Below are positions 32,359-57,520 of a DNA stretch of 64,000 nucleotides, piece by piece. Below the pieces are notes generated by a model. That model was not told the origin of the DNA, searched no databases, and was given only the letters and a program-made list of their open reading frames with translations. Numbering within the stretch: position 1 is the first letter of the stretch; each line of letters starts with the position of its first letter. This DNA is from Halarchaeum rubridurum (GTDB lineage Archaea > Halobacteriota > Halobacteria > Halobacteriales > Halobacteriaceae): contig NZ_BMOO01000003.1 in assembly GCF_014647115.1 (NCBI RefSeq), positions 1-64,000 on the forward strand, written 5' to 3'. The position numbers and the translations under genes are program-made.

Positions 32359-33054
32359 TCATAGTGCATGCACCCGTTCAAGTGCTCGTGCGGTGTTCTT
32401 CCCTGATTTCGAGAGGTAGTGTTTCGCGGTTTCGAGCTTGCTCCAGCCCATGAAGGCTTTGAGCGGGATGATGTCGAGGCCGTTATCTGCCAGTGTGGTT
32501 GCGGCGGTTGCTCGGAGTGCGTGTGGGTAGCAGTGGTCGGCATCAACTTCGGCGGCGTGTTCGGCTGCGGCGGTGACGCGGCGGTTGACGACCGCGCGGG
32601 AGAACGGCCACTCGTCGTGCCGGTTGAAGAACCGCTCGATGGCGAGTGTCGCGCGAGGGTTATGTCCGAAGGGGACTTCGCGGGCGGATGCGACGGTCTT
32701 CGGACTCCACATTCGGGCTTCCGCGTCGGCTTGACTGAGGTCGTCGTTTGCGTCCGCGGCCTGCGCGCTCTGCGCGCGACAGTATCCGCAGACGCCACCA
32801 TCCATGCCTTTCTGGCAGGGTTCGTGGACGGGGATTTCGATCATCTGCCGTCGGAAGTCGACCCAGTCGCGTTGGATGTGCGCGATCTCGCCGGCGCGAA
32901 GTCCGAGGCGGCCGGCGACGAGAATTACGAACCGTGTGTCCTGTGCGTGGCTGTCGGGCAGCTCGCGCGCGCCCTCTAAGAGAAGTTGGAACTGGCGGCT
33001 GCGCAGTGCATCTTCACGCGAGTATCGGTGGGTTTCAGCGTTCGTGATCGCCAT
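32359..33054 (-). CDS. Second tyrosine recombinase, catalytic-domain type
   Basis: 231 aa recombinase without a full core-binding domain. All key residues can be seen: Arg in GRLGLRAGEI, His-x2-Arg in CYPHALRATAATTL, Trp in FMGWSKLETA and Tyr in KHYLSKSG. A CxxC pair (CQKG...CGYC) sits in an insertion at about residues 80-93 and may bind zinc. It is embedded in the early operon rather than at an att site, so inversion, dimer resolution or excision help are possible roles. Confidence 0.85.
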   Translation of the reverse strand: MAITNAETHRYSREDALRSRQFQLLLEGARELPDSHAQDTRFVILVAGRLGLRAGEIAHIQRDWVDFRRQMIEIPVHEPCQKGMDGGVCGYCRAQSAQAADANDDLSQADAEARMWSPKTVASAREVPFGHNPRATLAIERFFNRHDEWPFSRAVVNRRVTAAAEHAAEVDADHCYPHALRATAATTLADNGLDIIPLKAFMGWSKLETAKHYLSKSGKNTARALERVHAL

Positions 33055-33744: not shown

Positions 33745-34001
33745 CACGCGCCACCTCCGAAGAAGACGCGGCTGACCCCCCTCTCGCCGCATGCCGGACA
33801 CTCGTCTGCCGGGTCTCCCCATCGCAGCACAGAGCAGGAGATGCACATGAATCCACTGTCGATCTCGATCTCGCCGTGATAGATGTCGACGTCACAGCCG
33901 AACTCGTCGTGCGCTTCAGCGACGTCGCCAGCCTCCTCGAGGTCGGCTGCGCCGTCGGTGAGCTCGCCGCACTGCTGGCAGACAGCGACGTAGCCGGTCA
34001 T
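33744..34001 (-). CDS. Zinc-finger protein of early operon
   Basis: 85 aa protein with CQQCG, CISC and CPACG motifs, enough for two zinc sites. The last codons encode GGGA and end in GCGTGATG, the same junction seen in neighbouring genes. Unknown function. Confidence 0.62.
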   Translation of the reverse strand: MTGYVAVCQQCGELTDGAADLEEAGDVAEAHDEFGCDVDIYHGEIEIDSGFMCISCSVLRWGDPADECPACGERGVSRVFFGGGA

Positions 34002-34423
34002 AGTGCCTCACCTCGGTAGTCGTCGCGGGCGTCGTGTCGTGCGAGGAAGGTCTGCCAGAGGCCGTCGCTGGCGGCGTCCGCGCATGCTTGGCAGGGGAGG
34101 CGGCCGGCGCGGAGGTCGCGCTCGCCGCGACACCAGGGGTCGTCGTGCTGGCAGGTCTCGCCGTCATCGGCGAGGAACGCCTTGAGGGCGCGTTTCGGGC
34201 CGGCGCGCCCCGCGTTCCCTTCTGGGGTCTCCGTGGGTTTGTCGGTGCAGCGTCCGCACTTCTGGTAGTGTCCGTCGGGGATCGCGCTCGTGGGCTTCTC
34301 GGCGAGGTTCTTCGCCTGTTGGGCGGCCGGGCACTCCGGGTCCCAGTGTTCGGTGTTCGTCGAGCGCTTCGTCGCAACGTGGAGCGTCTCCGGCCGCGAC
34401 GACGGCGTCGAGGCGGCCGCCAT
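33998..34423 (-). CDS. EHWD-type zinc-binding protein, long form
   Basis: 141 aa protein. The N-terminal 48 residues form the EHWD module: a strand, TEHWDPECP, then GHYQKCGRCT. A second Cys/His-rich part follows (CQHDDPWC, CQACADAA) that looks like an independent zinc domain. Two paralogues of the first module lie upstream in the same operon (67 and 129 aa). ATGA coupling with the next gene. Confidence 0.65.
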   Translation of the reverse strand: MAAASTPSSRPETLHVATKRSTNTEHWDPECPAAQQAKNLAEKPTSAIPDGHYQKCGRCTDKPTETPEGNAGRAGPKRALKAFLADDGETCQHDDPWCRGERDLRAGRLPCQACADAASDGLWQTFLARHDARDDYRGEAL

Positions 34424-34644
34424 CACGCGTCACCCCCCTCGTCGATAACGCTATCCCAGTCGACGGTCGCGATGTAGCCGTCCGCGTCGTCTGGGTGGAT
34501 GTCGTCTTCGAGCGCTTCGGTGAGTTTGAGCGCGCGATCCTGCAGGTCGACCAGAATCTTGTCTGCATCCTCGTCAGGGCCGGAGACGACGATGTCGATC
34601 TCATAGTCGCCGTGGCCGAGACCCGAGACGCTGATTTCGACCAT
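34423..34644 (-). CDS. Small acidic protein, early operon
   Basis: 73 aa protein predicted as beta-beta-alpha (VEISVSGLGHGDYEIDIVV, then an amphipathic helix). It has no cysteines, unlike its neighbours. It ends in DEGGDA, encoded by the repeated junction sequence. Unknown function. Confidence 0.6.
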   Translation of the reverse strand: MVEISVSGLGHGDYEIDIVVSGPDEDADKILVDLQDRALKLTEALEDDIHPDDADGYIATVDWDSVIDEGGDA

Positions 34645-34847
34645 CACGCGTCACCCCCTTCGTCGGTGCAGAGCTGGCATTTCGGGTAGTACCCCTGGGG
34701 GATCGTCGTGGCGGGCTTCGTCGCGACGTTCTCAACACGCGCGAGCGCTTGGCAGCTCCGGTCCCAGTGCTCGGTCTTTGTCGCGTGCCGCGCCGTGTTC
34801 ACGTGCACTTCGTCGGGCCGCGTCGACGGCGTGTCGGCCGCCGCCAT
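34644..34847 (-). CDS. EHWD-type zinc-binding miniprotein, minimal form
   Basis: 67 aa protein that is essentially one EHWD module: VHVNTARHATKTEHWDRSC, then GYYPKCQLCT and the DEGGDA tail. The His/Cys set (HWDxxC, CxxC) suits one zinc. It shows the module is a stand-alone fold. Start and stop are both TGATG overlaps. Confidence 0.65.
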   Translation of the reverse strand: MAAADTPSTRPDEVHVNTARHATKTEHWDRSCQALARVENVATKPATTIPQGYYPKCQLCTDEGGDA

Positions 34848-35032
34848 CAGACGTCACCCCCTTCGAGGGCTTCAGCGGCACACTCGAGGTCGCAGTAGTA
34901 GTCCGTCTGACTGACGGCGATGCCGTCGGGGTCGAACTTGTGCATCACGACCTCGTCGAGACGGTCGTCTTCGACGGCGTCGTCGGGGAAGTCCGGGAAC
35001 TCGCGGCCGCACGACTGGCAGATGAGCGCCAT
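34847..35032 (-). CDS. Zinc-finger miniprotein
   Basis: 61 aa protein with CQSCG and YCDLEC, a treble-clef-like CxxC...CxxxC arrangement. It ends in EGGDV at a junction variant (GACGTCTGATG). Unknown function. Confidence 0.62.
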   Translation of the reverse strand: MALICQSCGREFPDFPDDAVEDDRLDEVVMHKFDPDGIAVSQTDYYCDLECAAEALEGGDV

Positions 35033-35421
35033 CACGCGTCACCCCCTTCGTCGGCGGCGGGCGTGCAGCGCTTGCAGAACTCGTAGTAGCCCTCGGGGAC
35101 GGTCGCGGCGTCGCGCGCCGCCGGTGTCGACGTCGACTTGAACGCCGGGCAATCCTCGTCCCAGTGTTCGCGCTTCTTCACCGACCCGGTCGGCACGTAA
35201 ATCGTCGCCGGCCGCGCGTCCGCTTCCTTAACCGGCTGGCCCGCGTCCGACCCAGTAGGGCTCCCCGGCCCTGTCCGATCCTTACTCGCTGCGCTCGCTG
35301 AGTCAGACAGCTCGCGCTCTTCGTGGTGGGTCTCCGCGTCGATACGCGCGGCCTCGGTAGCCGCAGGCTTCCGCGTCGTATGGGCCCTATTCTTAAGAGG
35401 CCCGTCGATGTTGTCTCGCAT
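35032..35421 (-). CDS. EHWD-type zinc-binding protein, first gene of early operon
   Basis: 129 aa protein. A disordered charged N-terminal half (about 75 residues) precedes the EHWD module: IYVPTGSVKKREHWDEDCP, then GYYEFCKRCT and DEGGDA. As the promoter-proximal gene it should be the most expressed of the operon. The structured control region lies directly upstream. No annotated family is recognised. Confidence 0.65.
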   Translation of the reverse strand: MRDNIDGPLKNRAHTTRKPAATEAARIDAETHHEERELSDSASAASKDRTGPGSPTGSDAGQPVKEADARPATIYVPTGSVKKREHWDEDCPAFKSTSTPAARDAATVPEGYYEFCKRCTPAADEGGDA

Positions 35422-36623: not shown

Positions 36624-37388
36624 ATGTCGATTGGTGGCGATGGTGTGCTCTCCTCTGCAACCAGCACGTTTGATCTCTATGACTTCTTCAGTATGCTCCT
36701 CCCGGGCGTCGCATTTTTGATCGGGATGTTCCCATTCGCCCCAAGCGAAATGCCCCTTGGTACATTCGAAACTCTACTCGTACTCATCGTCGTGGGCTAC
36801 ATCCTCGGCCGGGCAATCCACAGCGCCGCTGAGAGCCTGGACCCCCACCTCGGGGAGCCAAGCCACCGGGCTGAATTTGACCGTCTCATCAGGACCCGTA
36901 GTCCATCTGAAATATCCGAAGAGACGCTCGATGCGTACTACACAGCTGCACAGGAGCAATTCGACTACATGGACCTCCCCGATGATCGAACGGACGTTGA
37001 GGATGGCGACCTTAAGACGCTATACGTCCACACACGAGCCCTGATCCACCGCGATGGGCAAGGCCGGTCGCGGACCTTCCAGGCGATCTACGCGTTCTAT
37101 CGGAGCGTCACCCTCGTCGCTGTACTCCTCGCAGTGGTATACTTCATCTACGGGATGGGGAGGTACTTCGGGGCGTGGGTTGTGATCGGAGCCTACACGT
37201 CTCACCTCGGGGCACTACAGCTTCCCTTCGCGTTCTTCCAGCTGGGGGCTGAAGCTGCGACTATGTTGACGTACCTGACGTTTCACGACGCGAAGGGAGA
37301 CTACCGGACCTACTTCCTCCAGTACCTGATCGTTGACTTCTTGATCATCCTCGGTATCCGAGAAGGGGTCAGACCTCCGGCTCAGTAG
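36624..37388 (+). CDS. Polytopic membrane protein, low-GC cargo gene
   Basis: 254 aa protein. Two N-terminal membrane helices (about residues 18-38 and 45-65) precede a cytosolic helical region (about 70-150). Two or three more hydrophobic segments follow (about 155-180, 185-205 and 232-248). Codon use is far less GC-biased than the neighbours, which suggests separate recent acquisition. No family recognised. Candidate for superinfection immunity or lysogenic conversion. Confidence 0.68.
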   Translation: MSIGGDGVLSSATSTFDLYDFFSMLLPGVAFLIGMFPFAPSEMPLGTFETLLVLIVVGYILGRAIHSAAESLDPHLGEPSHRAEFDRLIRTRSPSEISEETLDAYYTAAQEQFDYMDLPDDRTDVEDGDLKTLYVHTRALIHRDGQGRSRTFQAIYAFYRSVTLVAVLLAVVYFIYGMGRYFGAWVVIGAYTSHLGALQLPFAFFQLGAEAATMLTYLTFHDAKGDYRTYFLQYLIVDFLIILGIREGVRPPAQ

Positions 37389-38433
37389 TAACCACGAGCG
37401 GCGGCTCGACGTCGCGGTCGACGACACGATACTCGGTACCCCGCCGTTTACCCTCGCGTTCGACGAGGTCGTACGCCTCAAGCTTCTGGATTTTGTACCG
37501 GCGATCCCGCCGGCTGATCGGCTGGACCGGAAGGCCGGAGTAGAGCCGGTCGTCGGCGCGCTCGTAGCGATCATGGAGCCGGCCACCCCGAACCCACTCG
37601 TCGCCGAACTGATAGAGCACGGCGTAGAGCACCTGGTGGTGGGTCGGCAGCGACGCGAGGTTGCTGCGGCGGATCGCCGTCCGTGCGCGCGCGTAGCAAT
37701 CCGCGACGTCCAGGTCGTGAATATGGGGGTGGTCGCGCTCCTGTGCGAGTTCGGCCGCGGCGCGCAGGCTCTGGATTCCGTCGCGGGCAACACCTGCGAC
37801 TTCGTCCGCAATCGTGTGGAGCTGGTCGGAGGTCACGGCACCAAAGCGGAGGCCGACGCGCGCCCGCGCTTCAAGGATGTCCGCGAGTTCGGTCGTGCCG
37901 TACCGGTCGAGTCCGAGATGGGTCATGGCGGCGTGGTCGTAGCCGTCGGGGGCGCGTGCGAGCCACTCGTCGGGGTCGTGGACGATGACGACGACGGACA
38001 CGAGGCCGATCCCGCGGAGGTGGTCGAGGATGTTGGTTTCGTGGAGATCGTCGGCCTCGTCGAGGACGACGATGCAGGGGCGGTCGGCTGCGACCTGGAG
38101 GATTTCGACGAGGTCGGGGAGGGGTTCGTTCCCGGCAAGGTGGACGCCAGCATGGTGTTGGTGGAGGATCGTGCGGAGGATGTCTCCAGCGGTCGCGCCC
38201 ATGGTGTCGACGACTGCGCTATCGACGTCGGCGTGCTCGTCGAGACGGCGGAGGGCGCAGCGCGCGAGCGCGGTTTTGCCGACGCCGCTCGGGCCGTGGA
38301 TGAGGACGTCTTCGGCGCGGTCGCCGTTTGTGGCTGGCTGGAAGGCTTGTGCGAGGGTGGTCATGGCGCCTTCGCGGTGTTCGAGCGACCGTGGGAGGTG
38401 GCCGTCTTCGAAGACGTGCGGCGCCGTGATCAT
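37369..38433 (-). CDS. Orc1/Cdc6-type replication initiator
   Basis: 354 aa AAA+ protein. Walker A HGPSGVGKTA is at about residues 46-55, Walker B VVLDEADD near 123-130, and a C-terminal winged helix lies at about 265-345 (SRRDRRYKIQKLEAYDLVEREGKRRG). It should recognise an origin and load the helicase for the virus. The ATG at 38,433 fits a leaderless mRNA from the TTTTATA box about 30 nt upstream. An origin-box-like site lies behind the promoter. Confidence 0.88.
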   Translation of the reverse strand: MITAPHVFEDGHLPRSLEHREGAMTTLAQAFQPATNGDRAEDVLIHGPSGVGKTALARCALRRLDEHADVDSAVVDTMGATAGDILRTILHQHHAGVHLAGNEPLPDLVEILQVAADRPCIVVLDEADDLHETNILDHLRGIGLVSVVVIVHDPDEWLARAPDGYDHAAMTHLGLDRYGTTELADILEARARVGLRFGAVTSDQLHTIADEVAGVARDGIQSLRAAAELAQERDHPHIHDLDVADCYARARTAIRRSNLASLPTHHQVLYAVLYQFGDEWVRGGRLHDRYERADDRLYSGLPVQPISRRDRRYKIQKLEAYDLVEREGKRRGTEYRVVDRDVEPPLVVTTEPEV

Positions 38434-39437: not shown

Positions 39438-39745
39438 CACCCTGCCTCCTCGTCGAGCTTCTTCCGGAGGACGACGTCGAGGCGGACGTCCGGGACGCGG
39501 CGGGCGCCGCGAATCATCTCGACGCGCCGAACGTGCGCGCAGCCCTCAGGCGGGTCGTTGTACTGCATGTCCTCGCAGTCACAGACCGCGGCGTCGGGAT
39601 CGACCGTCCGCGCGACGCCCTCGGAGTTGTAGACCGTCCAGAAGCCGTCGCCGTCCGGTTCGACGGCGACCATCGCGTCCTGGGCGGCACGGAGGTCGCG
39701 CTTCCCGTAGACGGCGCGGGCGAGTTCTGTGTTCGAAATCGCCAT
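39437..39745 (-). CDS. SWIM zinc-finger protein
   Basis: 102 aa. The sequence VCDCEDMQYNDPPEGCAHV matches the CxCxnCxH pattern of SWIM domains (about residues 55-73), usually DNA- or protein-binding. The N-terminal half is a small alpha/beta region. No fused ATPase or helicase is present. TGATG-type coupling on both sides. Confidence 0.75.
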   Translation of the reverse strand: MAISNTELARAVYGKRDLRAAQDAMVAVEPDGDGFWTVYNSEGVARTVDPDAAVCDCEDMQYNDPPEGCAHVRRVEMIRGARRVPDVRLDVVLRKKLDEEAG

Positions 39746-40500
39746 CAGTCCTCGGCCTCCTCGTGGATCGCCGCAGTGCGCTCAAGCCGGCCGCGGGGGT
39801 AGGCGTAGCGATTCTGCGGCGTGAGGTCGGTGTCGCTCCGACTCGGGAAGACGACTTCGACGACGTCGTCGTCCGCGGGGTAGTCGGGGTTGACGTCCGC
39901 GACGGTCGTGCCGTCCGCGTCGATCTCGTGACCGCTCGCGTCCCCTACGGGGACGCGAGCGGCAAGCATCGTTGCCGGGGTCTCGCCTTCGTCGTCGCGG
40001 TCCTGGACGTGGTCGCCGACGTGGAGCTGCGGCCGGCCGCCGTCCGTGGCGAGCGTGCTGAGCGGATCGTCTTCGAAGACGCGCTCGCGGACGTCCGGGT
40101 GGGCGCGGAGCCACGCGGCGGCCTCGCGCGTCGCGGCCGCGACGTCCGCGGCGTCCTCGAAGCCCTCCGCGACCCAGGTATCGCCGTCCGCGAGGACGAC
40201 GCCGGCGCGGGCCGCGCAGAGTTCTCTGACGCGGTCGCGGGCCTGTCGGTGGAGATCGGGGAGGGGCTCGCCGGCCGTGCGTCCCTGATCTCCAGCGCCG
40301 CGCAGCGTCTCCCGGCGTTCGTCGCGGACGTCCTCGAGGGACGCGATGGCGTCCTCCAGGGTGGCGAGCTGCGAGTCTTCCAGGACGTCGTCGTGGACGC
40401 CGTCGGCGAGGACGCGATGTCGGAACTCGCTGGGTGCCGTCGACGTGTGGTCGCTGCGGATGCGGCGTGCCGCCCGCGGGTGGATGTCCTGACCGCGCAT
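39745..40500 (-). CDS. Hypothetical protein, second early operon
   Basis: 251 aa acidic protein: a helical N-terminal 160 residues (including TREAAAWLRAHPDVRERVF) and a beta-rich C-terminal part (VEVVFPSRSDTDLTP). No known family is recognised. Start in a TGATG overlap with the microprotein gene. Confidence 0.6.
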   Translation of the reverse strand: MRGQDIHPRAARRIRSDHTSTAPSEFRHRVLADGVHDDVLEDSQLATLEDAIASLEDVRDERRETLRGAGDQGRTAGEPLPDLHRQARDRVRELCAARAGVVLADGDTWVAEGFEDAADVAAATREAAAWLRAHPDVRERVFEDDPLSTLATDGGRPQLHVGDHVQDRDDEGETPATMLAARVPVGDASGHEIDADGTTVADVNPDYPADDDVVEVVFPSRSDTDLTPQNRYAYPRGRLERTAAIHEEAED

Positions 40501-40583
40501 CACGCATCGGCCTCCTCGGTGTCGCGCTGCTGGTAGACGACCGCGTCGTCTTCGGGGACGTGGAGGACGTCGTAGGACTGCAT
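40500..40583 (-). CDS. 27-residue microprotein, copy 1
   Basis: Only 27 codons, yet coupled on both sides (TGATG overlaps) in the operon. Its sequence shares YDxLHxPxDDAVVY with the 27-aa gene at 51,578-51,661 on the other strand, 11 kb away. Conservation of sequence, length and coupling supports real translation. Probably a single beta hairpin or a partner peptide. Confidence 0.62.
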   Translation of the reverse strand: MQSYDVLHVPEDDAVVYQQRDTEEADA

Positions 40584-41086
40584 CAGTTCCCACCCTCGCT
40601 GAGCCGCGGTTCGTCGTCGCGCACGGCGACCGAGGCGGCGAACGATTCGGGGCCGCCGCGGCGGACGATGCGCGGGACGACGAGGAACCCCTCGCCGAAC
40701 CCGTCGGCCATGACGGGGAGGCCGGGATAGTCCATCCGGCCGTCCGGGGCCTCGGCGTGCTGGCTCCAGATGTGGATCGTCTCGGCGTGCGCCTCGATGA
40801 GGCTCGCGTCGTAGACGCGCTCGACGCGATCGCCCGTCTCGGGGTCTTCGTAGAGGACGTGGATCTGGTTGCGTTCGTCGGCGTTGGCACGCGAGCCGCT
40901 GACGCGCTTGGTGACGAAGGCGTAGGTGTGGCAGAGCTTGATCGCGTGGAACCGCGTCTCGCCGTCGCGGACGGGTTCGTGGCTGCCCCACTCTGCCCAC
41001 GTCGCGGGGACATCGTAGAGGGTGCGATCCAGCTGCTGTACCGTCGCGTCGGAATCGTTATCCGGTCTGCGTGGTGTTGTGTGCAT
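40583..41086 (-). CDS. Hypothetical protein, first gene of second early operon
   Basis: 167 aa mixed alpha/beta protein with AIKLCHTYAFVTKRVSG and VVPRIVRRGGPESF; no family recognised. The ATG at MHTTPRRPD was chosen; a GTG 54 nt upstream is possible and would fit a TTTTATA box near 41,194 better. Palindromes upstream suggest tight control. Confidence 0.6.
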   Translation of the reverse strand: MHTTPRRPDNDSDATVQQLDRTLYDVPATWAEWGSHEPVRDGETRFHAIKLCHTYAFVTKRVSGSRANADERNQIHVLYEDPETGDRVERVYDASLIEAHAETIHIWSQHAEAPDGRMDYPGLPVMADGFGEGFLVVPRIVRRGGPESFAASVAVRDDEPRLSEGGN

Positions 41087-41138
41087 GGGTTTGCGTGGTG
41101 CAGACCCGAGGTCCGGCGCTGGTACGCCGGGCCACTTC

Positions 41139-41242
41139 ACTTCTGAAGTAGCGTTCCTCGGTGCCTACTCTACAGTATACTTCCCGTGTCTATAAAACTT
41201 ACGTCGTAAGCTCACTTCGGGGGCTTCCGTAGTAAGGCTTAC
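41139..41242. promoter_or_regulatory. Divergent promoter region with CTTAC/GTAAG palindromes
   Basis: Three perfect short palindromes: ACTTCTGAAGT (41,139-41,149), CTTACGTCGTAAG (41,198-41,210) and GTAAGGCTTAC (41,232-41,242). The last two share CTTAC/GTAAG half-sites with centres 33 nt apart, about three helical turns. TATAAAA at 41,191 lies between them and the leftward operon. This is the control region for the leftward operon and the rightward winged-helix gene. Confidence 0.6.
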
Positions 41243-41267: not shown

Positions 41268-41540
41268 GTGAGCCTCACAACCGAACCCGGAGGCATGCTC
41301 ACCGACGCAGACCTCCGCGACCTCGACCGCGAACTACTCGACTACCTCGACGAGGGGCGCATCACGCCGGTATACGCCCAGCGCCGCCTCGAGGAGGACA
41401 ACGTCGGCGACTACTCCCGCGGGTACGTCCAGCAACGCCTCGCCCGGCTCGAAGAACACGACCACGCCGCGAACCTGCTCGGCGTCGGACTCTACGAACT
41501 CGTGGACGACCCTCGCGAGGACGATGGTGGCGATGTCTGA
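41268..41540 (+). CDS. Winged-helix DNA-binding protein
   Basis: 90 aa. LTDADLRDLDRELLDYLDEG and RGYVQQRLARLEEH match the MarR-like winged helix common in haloarchaeal viruses. The start is GTG; an ATG 27 nt downstream is possible. It likely binds the palindromes just upstream and so controls its own and the divergent operon. Confidence 0.75.
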   Translation: MSLTTEPGGMLTDADLRDLDRELLDYLDEGRITPVYAQRRLEEDNVGDYSRGYVQQRLARLEEHDHAANLLGVGLYELVDDPREDDGGDV

Positions 41541-43921: not shown

Positions 43922-44694
43922 TAGTCAAGGACGTAGAACAGACTGTATTTGTGAGTCGACATGTTGCTCGCCCCCACGTAAGGGTCAAGCTCGCCATCAA
44001 ATCTCACGCAGAAAGAGGCCGAACTCGACGAATGAGTGTTTGCTGGGATGTCGTCTCTGAAATATTGCGCGTAACTCCCATCTATTGTGAGTCCGCAGTC
44101 GAGGTATCCCGCAGCATCTGTGGTTGTGCCGCTCACGGAGAGACCGAGCGCGAATCCCGATCCGCTGATGGTGGCCGAGGAGTCTGCGACGAGCGGTGTC
44201 TTGCTCGACCAGTCGACCGAGTCCTCGGGGACGGCGCGCGACGAGACGGCCGCGTCGACGTTCCCTCCCGGGAACGCCTGCCCGTCGGAGAGGATGTCGC
44301 TTTCTGCGAGGTCGTTGAGCGCCGAGATCGCCTTATCGAGACGCTGCGCTCGCGTCGCCGTCCACTCCGACGGGTCTGGCGAGTCGTCCGGAACTGCCCG
44401 TGTGGAGACGTCCGCGTCAAGATGCCCCTGCGGGTCGGGGTCGTCGTGACTGGAGCGCGACGACACGCTCGCATCAACGTTCGCCCCCGGGAAGGGGTGG
44501 CCGTCGGAGAGGATGTCGTCCTGCGCGAGCGACGGGATAGCGACCCACTCGAGGCCGCTTCCGACGTCCGCGTAGAGCTTTGTGCGGACGCCTTCGTCCG
44601 CGGATTGGTCGAACCATGATTCACCTGCTCGGGGGTTGGTCGGAGGGTCGGACTGTACGTAGTCGAACCCGCCGACGAGTTTCTTGAGTCCCAT
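43921..44694 (-). CDS. Tail fibre protein with repeated shaft units
   Basis: 257 aa. Repeats of ILSDGxxFPGxNVDAxVSSR occur at about residues 60-85 and 130-155, with a shorter DADVSTRAVPDD copy between them. A C-terminal globular beta domain (about 175-257) may bind the host surface. It starts in the stop of the upstream fibre-like gene. The repeats are visible at DNA level too and could support recombination. Confidence 0.7.
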   Translation of the reverse strand: MGLKKLVGGFDYVQSDPPTNPRAGESWFDQSADEGVRTKLYADVGSGLEWVAIPSLAQDDILSDGHPFPGANVDASVSSRSSHDDPDPQGHLDADVSTRAVPDDSPDPSEWTATRAQRLDKAISALNDLAESDILSDGQAFPGGNVDAAVSSRAVPEDSVDWSSKTPLVADSSATISGSGFALGLSVSGTTTDAAGYLDCGLTIDGSYAQYFRDDIPANTHSSSSASFCVRFDGELDPYVGASNMSTHKYSLFYVLD

Positions 44695-46319: not shown

Positions 46320-47474
46320 TTAGACCACCGCCGTGACCGTCCCGGGCTCGGCGATTGCCTGGTCGGCGACCGCGCGGTCATCCGAGACCGTCCCACTCGA
46401 GTCGGAGACGGTGAGCGAGTCAATCGAATCGATATCGCCGTCCGCGTTCATCACGTTCTGGATCAGCTTGTCGCGGATGACGTCCTCGCCGAGACCGAGT
46501 CCGGCGAGGTACTGCGTGACCGCGGCCTCGACGGCGTCCGTGTCGACGCCTGTCCCAGCGAGGTCGACGTCGACGTCGATAGTGACGAGCGTCGGTCGCA
46601 CGAGCGTGTGCTCAACCGCACTTGGCCGGAGCTCGTCGATTGCGGCCTGGACCTCACTATCCGACGGCCCCCCGTTCACGATCACGTCGGCGTTCGGTGG
46701 GGATGCGTTCCGGTGCTCGTCGACGATGACGTCACCGAGGTCAACGCCGTCGAAGCGGGAGGCGAGCCCGCCCTCGATGCCGCCGGTCGTGCCGCCGCCG
46801 GAGTTCTGAACGATGGCCGCCTGGGCGCGCTCGCGGAACTCCGCGTTCGTTTCGGGGTTCTCCCCGCCCGTGGTCGCGGTCGGGTTCGTGACGCCTTCGA
46901 CCCCCGGCGGCGGGCTCGGCATCGTCTGGATCGTCCCCGATCCGACGTTGTGGTCGGCGCCACGCGCGAGCGCTTGGATCGGCGCCGTGACGGTCGTCGC
47001 GCCGGCGTCGGGCGTGACGTCCGCGGTCGTTTCGAACGCGAGTGCGTCCGGCGGGTCAGTTGTGACGCGGAAGCCCGCGTCGACAGTCGTCGTCTCACTC
47101 GCGGTCGTGATCTGGATGGTGCCCGTCGCGTACGTCCCGGGGTCGCGCGTCACCGAGTTGCGAGCGGCGAGCGCGTCCAGGTCCGCGTCCTCCATCAGCG
47201 AGTTCAGGAGGTCGAGGTCGACGACGTCCGGGTCGATCCCGAGGTCGGTGAGGTCGTCCTCGGTGATGGGGCCGCCGGCGTACGCGATCCAGCCGGAGAG
47301 CTGGACGGCGAGTTTCGCGTGCTCGAGGGCGCGGAACGCACCGGCGAAGCCGTCGTCGGTGAGCGCGCGCTCCGGCGAGTTCGGGGAGAAGTTCGTGATG
47401 TCCGCGTCCGACTCACGGATACGGTCGCGGACGGCCTCGTACACCTGCTGCTGGGTCTGTGGGGCTTGTGGCAT
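46320..47474 (-). CDS. Baseplate J-like protein
   Basis: 384 aa wedge protein. An N-terminal helical part (QQVYEAVRDRIRESDADI) precedes a beta barrel and the typical GTASGG-like loop region GGENPETNAEFRERAQAAI (about residues 200-220). It assembles the contractile-tail baseplate with gp25-like and gpI. Length and neighbours fit. Confidence 0.88.
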   Translation of the reverse strand: MPQAPQTQQQVYEAVRDRIRESDADITNFSPNSPERALTDDGFAGAFRALEHAKLAVQLSGWIAYAGGPITEDDLTDLGIDPDVVDLDLLNSLMEDADLDALAARNSVTRDPGTYATGTIQITTASETTTVDAGFRVTTDPPDALAFETTADVTPDAGATTVTAPIQALARGADHNVGSGTIQTMPSPPPGVEGVTNPTATTGGENPETNAEFRERAQAAIVQNSGGGTTGGIEGGLASRFDGVDLGDVIVDEHRNASPPNADVIVNGGPSDSEVQAAIDELRPSAVEHTLVRPTLVTIDVDVDLAGTGVDTDAVEAAVTQYLAGLGLGEDVIRDKLIQNVMNADGDIDSIDSLTVSDSSGTVSDDRAVADQAIAEPGTVTAVV

Positions 47475-51386: not shown

Positions 51387-51581
51387 ATGTCGACTAACGC
51401 ATCGGCCGCACTTAAGACCGCGGCCAACGACGACATCGAATCGGCCTACACCTACCATATCGAGCCCGCCACGCAGGGCGGCTGTCGGTATGTCCGCTGC
51501 GAGACGTGTGGTGCAGAGTGCGTTCCCGCGACGCCCGCCCGCCTCACCCACCGCCCCGGCTGCACGGAGGCGGACGCATGA
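51387..51581 (+). CDS. Zinc-finger miniprotein, first gene of inserted island
   Basis: 64 aa. CETCGAEC...THRPGC gives a CxxC...HxxxC zinc pattern similar to those in the early-operon miniproteins. Ends in TEADA encoded by GGAGGCGGACGCATGATG, so the stop overlaps the next start and carries its ribosome-binding site. Confidence 0.62.
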   Translation: MSTNASAALKTAANDDIESAYTYHIEPATQGGCRYVRCETCGAECVPATPARLTHRPGCTEADA

Positions 51582-51661
51582 TGTACGACGAACTCCACAT
51601 CCCCAGCGACGACGCCGTCGTCTACCACCGCCGCCGCGGCAGCCCGGAGGACGACGCATGA
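51578..51661 (+). CDS. 27-residue microprotein, copy 2
   Basis: 27 codons, MMYDELHIPSDDAVVY then a basic-acidic tail ending DDA. It shares YDxLHxPxDDAVVY and exact length with the gene at 40,500-40,583. Starts in an ATGA overlap and ends in another, so it is part of a coupled operon. Confidence 0.62.
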   Translation: MMYDELHIPSDDAVVYHRRRGSPEDDA

Positions 51662-51783
51662 CCGCCGACGACTTCCTCGGTGACGACCAGCTCGCGGAGT
51701 GCCCTGTCTGCGGCGCGGTCGGCCTTCCCGAGCGGATTGACGAGCATGACTGTGAGAGCTTCCTCGCGCGGAGGGGCCAATGA
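51658..51783 (+). CDS. 41-residue zinc-knuckle protein
   Basis: 41 aa with CPVCG...HDC, a CxxC...HxC pattern for one zinc. Overlaps both neighbours by 4 nt (ATGA). Unknown function. Confidence 0.6.
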   Translation: MTADDFLGDDQLAECPVCGAVGLPERIDEHDCESFLARRGQ

Positions 51784-52157
51784 CCAACCGCGCCAACAAC
51801 CCCGCGCTCGGCCAAATCCTCACCGGCCTCCCAATCCGCCCTGGCGGCCACACCGACTGCACCAACTGCCACCAGACCGTCCGCGAAGGCGACCCAGTCG
51901 GCATCTACGCCCACTGGGGTGCCGAACACGGCGACTGGCACATCACCGACGTCTACTGCGTCGACTGCCGCCCCCGCGACTTCGGGCTCAAACGCACACG
52001 CATCCTCGGCGTCCCCGAAACCCTCGCACACGGCCGCCTCGCCGTCATGAGCGACAACCACACCCAGGACGCCAAACTCGTCGCGCATAGCGTCACCCTC
52101 CGCGCAACCAGCCCCGCAAACGAAGGCGCACACGGCCACACCATCACCGATGACTAG
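51780..52157 (+). CDS. Zinc-binding hypothetical protein of inserted island
   Basis: 125 aa. CTNCHQTVREGDPVGIYAHW and YCVDCRPRDFG form one zinc-ribbon-like domain (about residues 24-65). The C-terminal half is beta-rich with HSVTLRATSP. Function unknown. Confidence 0.6.
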   Translation: MTNRANNPALGQILTGLPIRPGGHTDCTNCHQTVREGDPVGIYAHWGAEHGDWHITDVYCVDCRPRDFGLKRTRILGVPETLAHGRLAVMSDNHTQDAKLVAHSVTLRATSPANEGAHGHTITDD

Positions 52158-56179: not shown

Positions 56180-57520
56180 TCACCCCTGCGTGTCGATGTT
56201 CACTGTCGCGCGGAACGTGCTGACAGCCTGAATCGGCGTGACGCCCATTTCGAGGGCGATCTCGCCTTGGTCCGTCTCGGCCGGGCGGACGTAGAGGTTC
56301 GTCTCGTCCTGGGTGTTCGCTTCGAGCAGTCCGTCCGCCGCGAGATCTTCGAGTTCTCCCTGGGCGGTCTGCGCGGCGATCTGCTCACGGTCACTCGTGT
56401 CGAGCTGGCCGTAGACGGCGTCGCCGACCGCCTTCACGAGGAGGACGCAGCGGTCGACGACGCGAACCGTCTGATAGGTGCGGCGCCAGTCGGCTTCGGT
56501 GGATGTCGACGAACTGCCGTCGACCGTAATCGAGCCCTCGGATTTGATCGGGATGACCTGCCCATCACGGAGGTTGTCTCGGTCCGCCTTTGTGAGCCGG
56601 CCTTCGTCGTTCTTCCCGGTTTCGAGCGTGACGCCGGTGAGTGCGTCGCCGAGGATCGGGTTTGTGAGGGCGTTCCCCGCGCCGATCCCGGCGAGCGCGC
56701 CGAGCAGCGTCTCGGTCGTATCGTCTTGGCGGACGGGGGCGGCGAGCCACTGCGGGAGCGCGTCGACGGCGTCCTCGTACGTCGTCGTGTCGTACATCGG
56801 CGTCGGCGGGGACTCGGAGGTGGTCGCGTTCGGCTCGGCGCCGGCGAATGCCTTCACCATCTTGTAGTCGGGGTTGCGGAGGGATTGGGCTTTCCCGGCG
56901 AGCGCGGACGCGACAGATTCCGCCTCGCTGAGTGCGACGTAGACGCCGGAGTCGCCCTCGTTGAGGACCATGTCCGCGCTGTCGAACGCCCCCCGCCATT
57001 CGAGGTACTTGTAGTCGATCTCGAAGTCGCTGCTCGCGTCCGTCTCTACGTCCCCGGTGAAGGGGTTGACGTACGCGGTGTCGGTTGATGACGGGGTCGC
57101 GAGCGACCCGTAGTGGTACTCGACGTCGAGGTCGGTCCCGGCGGTCGTGTCGGTGACCGTGATCTCGGCGGTGTCTTCGATGATCGGGGCGTTCCCGAGT
57201 GTGAAGGACTGGGTGCCGGCGTGCGACTCGCCGGTGACCGCGGTCGTCGACGGCATGACGCCGTAGAGGTAGCCGTTGTTCGCGCCGTTGTTGAGCGCGT
57301 CGCGGCAGCCGTTTGCGAGTTCGGTGTCGGCGCCGAATTTGGTCTCGGCGTCGTCGGCGGACGTGATCTGCGTCGGGGTGTTCGTTGCGGCGGTGCCACT
57401 GCTTGGGTCGCCCCGACCGAAGATGACGAGGAGCTCTTCCATCCCGACTTCGACGCCGGTAATGGACTGCCCCTTGAGGATCACCTCGGTCCCGGGCGTG
57501 CTGCCATACGTGATAGTCAT
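56180..57520 (-). CDS. Tail sheath protein
   Basis: 446 aa. The C-terminal part (WRRTYQTVRVVDRCVLLVKAVGDAVYGQLDTSDR) and the terminal GEIALEMGVTPIQAVSTF match contractile sheath proteins. This gene makes the element a myovirus. N-terminal insertion domain (about residues 60-200) is variable and likely surface exposed. Confidence 0.88.
   Translation of the reverse strand: MTITYGSTPGTEVILKGQSITGVEVGMEELLVIFGRGDPSSGTAATNTPTQITSADDAETKFGADTELANGCRDALNNGANNGYLYGVMPSTTAVTGESHAGTQSFTLGNAPIIEDTAEITVTDTTAGTDLDVEYHYGSLATPSSTDTAYVNPFTGDVETDASSDFEIDYKYLEWRGAFDSADMVLNEGDSGVYVALSEAESVASALAGKAQSLRNPDYKMVKAFAGAEPNATTSESPPTPMYDTTTYEDAVDALPQWLAAPVRQDDTTETLLGALAGIGAGNALTNPILGDALTGVTLETGKNDEGRLTKADRDNLRDGQVIPIKSEGSITVDGSSSTSTEADWRRTYQTVRVVDRCVLLVKAVGDAVYGQLDTSDREQIAAQTAQGELEDLAADGLLEANTQDETNLYVRPAETDQGEIALEMGVTPIQAVSTFRATVNIDTQG

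Follow-up and report, generated by a model that had tools for sequence, protein, structure and literature searches.

Two 27-codon open reading frames (ORFs), copies A and B, in the 64,000-nucleotide stretch of Halarchaeum rubridurum DNA analysed here (the window) probably represent one translated micro-cistron, which was recently duplicated, is private to a haloarchaeal tailed provirus and is kept open by translational coupling to its neighbours. As listed in Table 1, both ORFs were found where a preliminary description had placed them and were equal in length, their translations being MQSYDVLHVPEDDAVVYQQRDTEEADA on the minus strand and MMYDELHIPSDDAVVYHRRRGSPEDDA on the plus strand, each followed by a stop. 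The core YDxLHxPxDDAVVY that the same description had recognised is common to both copies, with 11/14 residues identical, and no trypsin site falls inside it, as in the peptide SYDVLHVPEDDAVVYQQR. ORFs of less than 90 nt fall below the size limit of default gene callers. We scored coding potential by codon log-odds, using the long genes of the window and the adjoining DNA as the training set. Controls were the 79 provirus ORFs that start with ATG, span 22-35 codons and are out of frame with called genes. Copies A and B scored 12.7 and 10.9, respectively, versus a maximum of 4.2 among the controls, and both ORFs look genuinely coding. The in-frame extensions upstream of the two ATGs scored -59 and -6, favouring the short forms and the ATG starts; note that a second ATG of copy B, at 51581, is an alternative possible start. 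A 422-aa frame spanning copy A was also considered as a gene and was rejected, being explained instead by a 251-aa gene starting at 40500, since homologues of the latter in two other genomes align from the first residue.

Table 1. Features of the provirus around copies A and B, in window coordinates.
Feature	Position	Strand	Basis or remark
Tyrosine integrase	32359-33054		Provirus
Orc1/Cdc6-type replication protein, end of operon A	37369-38433	-	TIGR02928 E=5e-35, below curated cut-off
251-aa protein downstream of copy A	39745-40500	-	N-terminal half phrog_26013
TGATG overlap, copy A stop / 251-aa gene start	40498-40502	-	Sequence; homologues align from residue 1
Copy A, 27-codon ORF MQSYDVLHVPEDDAVVYQQRDTEEADA	40500-40583	-	Codon score 12.7
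GGAGG Shine-Dalgarno-like motif in copy A tail	40511-40515	-	Codons E-E-A
TGATG overlap, 185-aa gene stop / copy A start	40581-40585	-	Sequence
185-aa protein upstream of copy A	40583-41140	-	44% identity to ChaoS9 gp64
90-aa protein divergent to operon A	41268-41540	+	Winged-helix-like by inspection only
Baseplate protein among contractile-tail genes	46320-47474		Provirus
64-aa CxxC zinc-finger-like protein upstream of copy B	51387-51581	+	
GGAGG Shine-Dalgarno-like motif upstream of copy B	51566-51570	+	Within 64-aa gene
Copy B, 27-codon ORF MMYDELHIPSDDAVVYHRRRGSPEDDA	51578-51661	+	Codon score 10.9
GGAGG Shine-Dalgarno-like motif in copy B tail	51646-51650	+	Codons P-E-D
ATGA overlap, copy B stop / 41-aa CxxC gene start	51658-51661	+	Sequence
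41-aa CxxC zinc-ribbon-like protein downstream of copy B	51658-51783	+	
125-aa protein with CxxC pairs, next in operon B	51780-52157	+	
Tail sheath	56180-57520		Provirus; related to Halogranum tailed virus 1

Both ORFs lie within one provirus, which is identical to the IMG/VR record IMGVR_UViG_2913406730_000001 (37,379 bp; window 32359 to ~69737). The operon of copy A is early, runs on the minus strand and ends in the Orc1-type gene, and that of copy B runs on the plus strand, encodes small CxxC proteins and is situated inside the tail-gene region. Both had been described as embedded in operons of zinc-finger miniproteins; this holds for copy B, whose neighbours are small CxxC/zinc-finger proteins, but not for copy A, which sits between the 185-aa and 251-aa proteins. 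Searches of the latter two proteins against Pfam, NCBIfam and PADLOC returned nothing useful on function, and a structure model of the 185-aa protein, built from an alignment of three sequences, was of no value (mean pLDDT 31). Neither Pfam nor NCBIfam gave a match for the divergent 90-aa protein; relatives, too, have a winged-helix/HTH gene in divergent orientation to the 185-aa gene. The 251-aa protein itself looks like a fusion of a phrog_26013 N-terminal half and a C-terminal half (PQLHVGDHVQD...), the latter being a separate protein in other haloarchaea, e.g., G208. Elsewhere in the provirus, three paralogous small ORFs (HWDxxCPA ... YxxCxxC) at 33998-35181 on the minus strand are interleaved with other ORFs in a chain coupled through TGATG, the junctions being nearly identical (GGGGGTGACGCGTGATGG); such junctions could be microhomology for cassette duplication, and a likely tail-fibre gene contains a 67-bp direct repeat of 82% identity (44233-44299 and 44452-44518).

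Copies A and B are diverged paralogues of one micro-cistron. A blastn comparison within the provirus aligned them at 60/78 identities (77% over 78 bp; E=1e-7) from the Tyr codon to the stop codon with one short gapped stretch, and only three repeat pairs within the provirus scored higher. This DNA similarity is confined to the ORF and ends at the ORF ends, indicating that the copies are paralogues. With copy B as the protein query, copy A was recovered from the 2.8-Mb genome with E=3.1e-4 (22 bits), whereas the best match other than the two copies across 98 genomes had E=0.009, the chance ceiling lying near 18.6 bits. In addition, the same codon was used at 10/11 shared core residues versus 6.7 expected (P=0.027), a slight excess that fits a fairly recent duplication.

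The stop/start overlaps that had been reported for both ORFs were confirmed at all four junctions and measure 1 nt or 4 nt, with TGATG on both sides of copy A, ATGA/TGATG upstream of copy B and ATGA downstream of it. Shine-Dalgarno motifs accompany them, namely GGAGG at three junctions and GAGG where the 185-aa gene meets copy A. Both ORFs thus show the features of haloarchaeal termination-reinitiation pairs, i.e., co-directed overlaps of 1 or 4 nt and a Shine-Dalgarno motif in the upstream 3' end. Across the provirus, 19/34 overlapping junctions had a Shine-Dalgarno match of at least 5 nt within the final ~20 nt of the preceding gene, compared with 8.3% of control positions, and DA was the commonest C-terminus at such junctions. 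Both 27-mers end in E-x-D-A (EADA in copy A, encoded by GAG-GAG-GCC-GAT-GCG-TGATG with the preceding codon, and EDDA in copy B, encoded in CCG-GAG-GAC-GAC-GCA-TGA), and several unrelated neighbours end alike (TEADA, EGGDA). The E-[AD]-D-A tail is therefore attributable to the Shine-Dalgarno motif and the overlapping start of the next gene, a provirus-wide pattern, and its resemblance between the two copies is no argument for peptide function.

Experiments in Haloferax volcanii showed strict coupling by termination-reinitiation for genes that overlap at ATGA/TGATG (Huber et al. 2019, PMC6728339) and its loss when the gap is 22-23 nt (Huber et al. 2023, PMC10666635). By analogy, we infer translation and coupling for both ORFs, as well as the direction of insertion, as follows. 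A cassette with coupling-compatible ends would have been inserted in two operons, the early, minus-strand Orc1 operon and the plus-strand operon of small zinc-finger proteins in the tail-gene region. A ribosome finishing the upstream gene would reinitiate at the overlapping ATG and translate the 27 codons; the stop of the 27-mer overlaps the next start, where GGAGG in the last codons would aid reinitiation on the gene that follows. If reinitiation fails across gaps of ~22 nt or more here as in H. volcanii, the frame must stay open: lacking an open frame with overlapping ends, the 80 nt between the 185-aa and 251-aa genes should shut off the genes downstream. Coupling alone could thus maintain the ORF open and fix the EADA/EDDA tail, and this bridge cistron would be translated since the operon requires its translation, whatever the product does.

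The pair had been presented as a conserved microprotein, a claim that found no support as far as a family is concerned: further searches returned only the two copies or chance matches. Specifically, strict and relaxed DNA patterns of the motif in IMG/VR matched only copies A and B, plus chance matches in unrelated frames, and the motif search of the GTDB genome collection yielded no relative, its single match being in an alphaproteobacterial MAG with no detectable DNA similarity to the window. Patterns and a profile revealed no further copy of the 27-codon ORF in 392 genomes of the order, and tblastn of each 27-mer against phage and plasmid records gave chance matches or none. The profile matches in the 98 and 392 genomes, all except L100, were rejected as short stretches of long unrelated frames. 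No homologue outside the provirus, of the kind that a conserved haloarchaeal virus protein family would have, was found in the collections searched. The syntenic sites agree with these results: the 185-aa and phrog_26013-type genes abut with nothing between them in the operon A relatives L068, L070, L076 and L077, virus ChaoS9 has a 2-nt gap from gp64 to gp65 without the 27-codon ORF, and the operon B relatives G208 and G219 are also without it. As far as the searched collections reach, the 27-codon pair is private to this provirus. Two observations were made at related loci. In G209 (L108 8842-8961), a different, unrelated 39-codon coupled ORF, MSATTTYTIGDGRTTTSAIVAEAFARIGVPVKAVTEADA, stands directly upstream of the phrog_26013 gene, suggesting that the slot accepts or exchanges different tiny cistrons. 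Furthermore, three genes lie downstream of the relatives of operon B genes at L181 8331-10830 and L182 8891-11420; the first matches the RAMP superfamily below threshold (PF03787, E=3.5e-4), and these are possibly mobile-element CRISPR-type genes.

A peptide-level function, perhaps as a β-hairpin, is possible. The acidic 27-mer might form a strand-turn-strand (YDxLHxP / DDAVVY), folded or docked on a viral or host partner, with a selected core and a drifting tail, and its two copies would then put the peptide under two regulatory programmes. We regard such a functional microprotein as unlikely, although it is the alternative that deserves the most weight. In its favour, the core is 11/14 identical and the tail poorly conserved, and overlapping gene pairs of H. 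volcanii are enriched for complex subunits (PMC10666635). The core changes also fell in only 4/14 codons (P=0.025 by simulation, post hoc), and the retention of 11/14 core residues had P=0.053 under random substitution, again post hoc and overlapping with the codon-clustering test. Taken together, clustered changes and intact residues hint that more than the openness of the frame is constrained, to some degree also the peptide. On the other hand, NG86 dN/dS was 0.181/0.217 = 0.83 for the core and 0.42/0.40 = 1.04 for the whole ORF; these values lend no support to purifying selection, and a single pair of such short ORFs gives the test low power. The check proposed earlier for constraint on a microprotein, in which equal proportions of synonymous and non-synonymous changes would speak against it, thus went largely against the proposal, with ratios of about 0.8 for the core to 1.0 for the whole. 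The lack of any homologue in the 392 genomes, IMG/VR and the GTDB genome collection, as well as the absence of the ORF at syntenic sites, likewise tells against a microprotein, and the 27-mers are under the 30-residue minimum of structure prediction.

The profile built from the two peptides pointed to the C-terminus of a leader ORF (YDVIHVAGDDAVLFEPT...). These leader ORFs, 75-100 aa in length, occur on Natrialbaceae plasmids and chromosomes and end in YDxIHVAGDDAVLFEPTGxDRDA. They form an uncharacterised family (L115 2501-2728 on N. magadii pNMAG01, L100 and L152-L160), with starts of the type M.NE.SRGNEYCPLDDG... or MRQDSLRAHNCRAHEP... and the end YDEIIVAGDDAILFEPT. Each overlaps the start of the next gene, which encodes a TnpB/Cas12f-TNB zinc-ribbon or another protein, and is divergent to a winged-helix repressor where flanks were seen; several records leave it unannotated. 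The 27-mer might accordingly be a detached C-terminal module of this leader, in which the motif modulates termination-reinitiation from the ribosome tunnel. The motif stands 20-25 codons before the stop in both 27-mers and leaders, and the leader family also overlaps its next gene. However, copy B reached no more than 11.8 bits against the leader profile (E=0.13 in a search of 1.15 million residues), under other chance matches, the first leader had been chosen by its similarity to the 27-mers, and the acidic end is explicable by the reinitiation signal. Homology of the 27-mers to the leader family, a lead that came from L100, was not established, the match to the C-terminal profile being non-significant, and we give the module reading little credence. 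The broader idea that the motif YDx[LI]H..xDDAV.. sets termination-reinitiation efficiency from the exit tunnel and moves as a mini-cassette between viral operons is barely credible.

It is also very improbable that a DNA or RNA element, such as an operator, a recombination site or a hairpin, is what is conserved, and not the peptide. The dyad GACGACGCnGTCGTC is present in both copies and occurs 4 times in the window versus 0.03 expected, and identical codons exceed expectation; but this dyad is D-D-A-V-V in preferred codons, two of its four occurrences fall outside the provirus, the RNA folded no better than shuffled sequences (z=0.78 and -1.02), and the coding signature of both ORFs is strong. 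That two spurious ORFs in GC-rich DNA resemble each other by chance is hardly conceivable: open frames abound in such haloarchaeal DNA (206 ORFs of at least 20 aa in 16 kb), as do weak matches of 15-19 bits, but the blastn match with its high rank among provirus repeats, the coding scores far above controls and the 22-bit protein match over the chance ceiling contradict it.

With a coupled bridge cistron as the preferred reading, the pair would be a clean case from nature in which very short ORFs spread through haloarchaeal virus operons and remain open although the peptide need not be useful, coupling alone enforcing the frame and dictating part of the peptide sequence. It also cautions that frame preservation or common C-terminal tails are poor grounds for naming tiny ORFs 'microproteins', and it offers a compact system for testing if ribosomes are handed on by a bridge cistron of 27 codons.

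Among known systems, the Natrialbaceae leader (e.g., WP_012996860.1 on N. magadii pNMAG01) carries YDxIHVAGDDAvLFEPT, which resembles YDxLHxPxDDAVVY and stands equally far from a coupled stop, whereas the leader is 75-100 aa long, has another N-terminus and is often upstream of TnpB-like zinc-ribbon genes. The haloarchaeal micro-proteins, including those of the C(P)xCG type (PMC6562870, PMC10716476, PMC11241148), are likewise very small and acidic, and copy B lies among CxxC ORFs. However, the 27-mers are shorter and without known relatives; cysteine is absent from both, so that neither has the two C(P)xCG motifs of zinc-finger micro-proteins. The early operon of Halobacterium virus ChaoS9 (gp64 to orc1; PMC6471424) resembles operon A in its order of a divergent HTH gene (winged-helix-like by inspection here), a gp64-like gene, small genes and orc1, but it is without the 27-codon ORF at gp64/gp65, and gp65 is not a demonstrated relative of the 251-aa protein. 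Compared with Vertoviridae/ChaoS9-like viruses, the gp64 homologue and orc1 stand in the same order here, whereas for the tail sheath the nearest match is Halogranum tailed virus 1 (44%). Finally, haloarchaeal coupled pairs (PMC6728339, PMC10666635) show the same ATGA/TGATG overlaps of -4/-1 nt with a Shine-Dalgarno motif in the upstream 3' end. The pair belongs with the coupled micro-ORFs of haloarchaeal viruses, an already known sort, and differs from those coupled pairs in that the 27-codon cistron here bridges two genes that abut in relatives.
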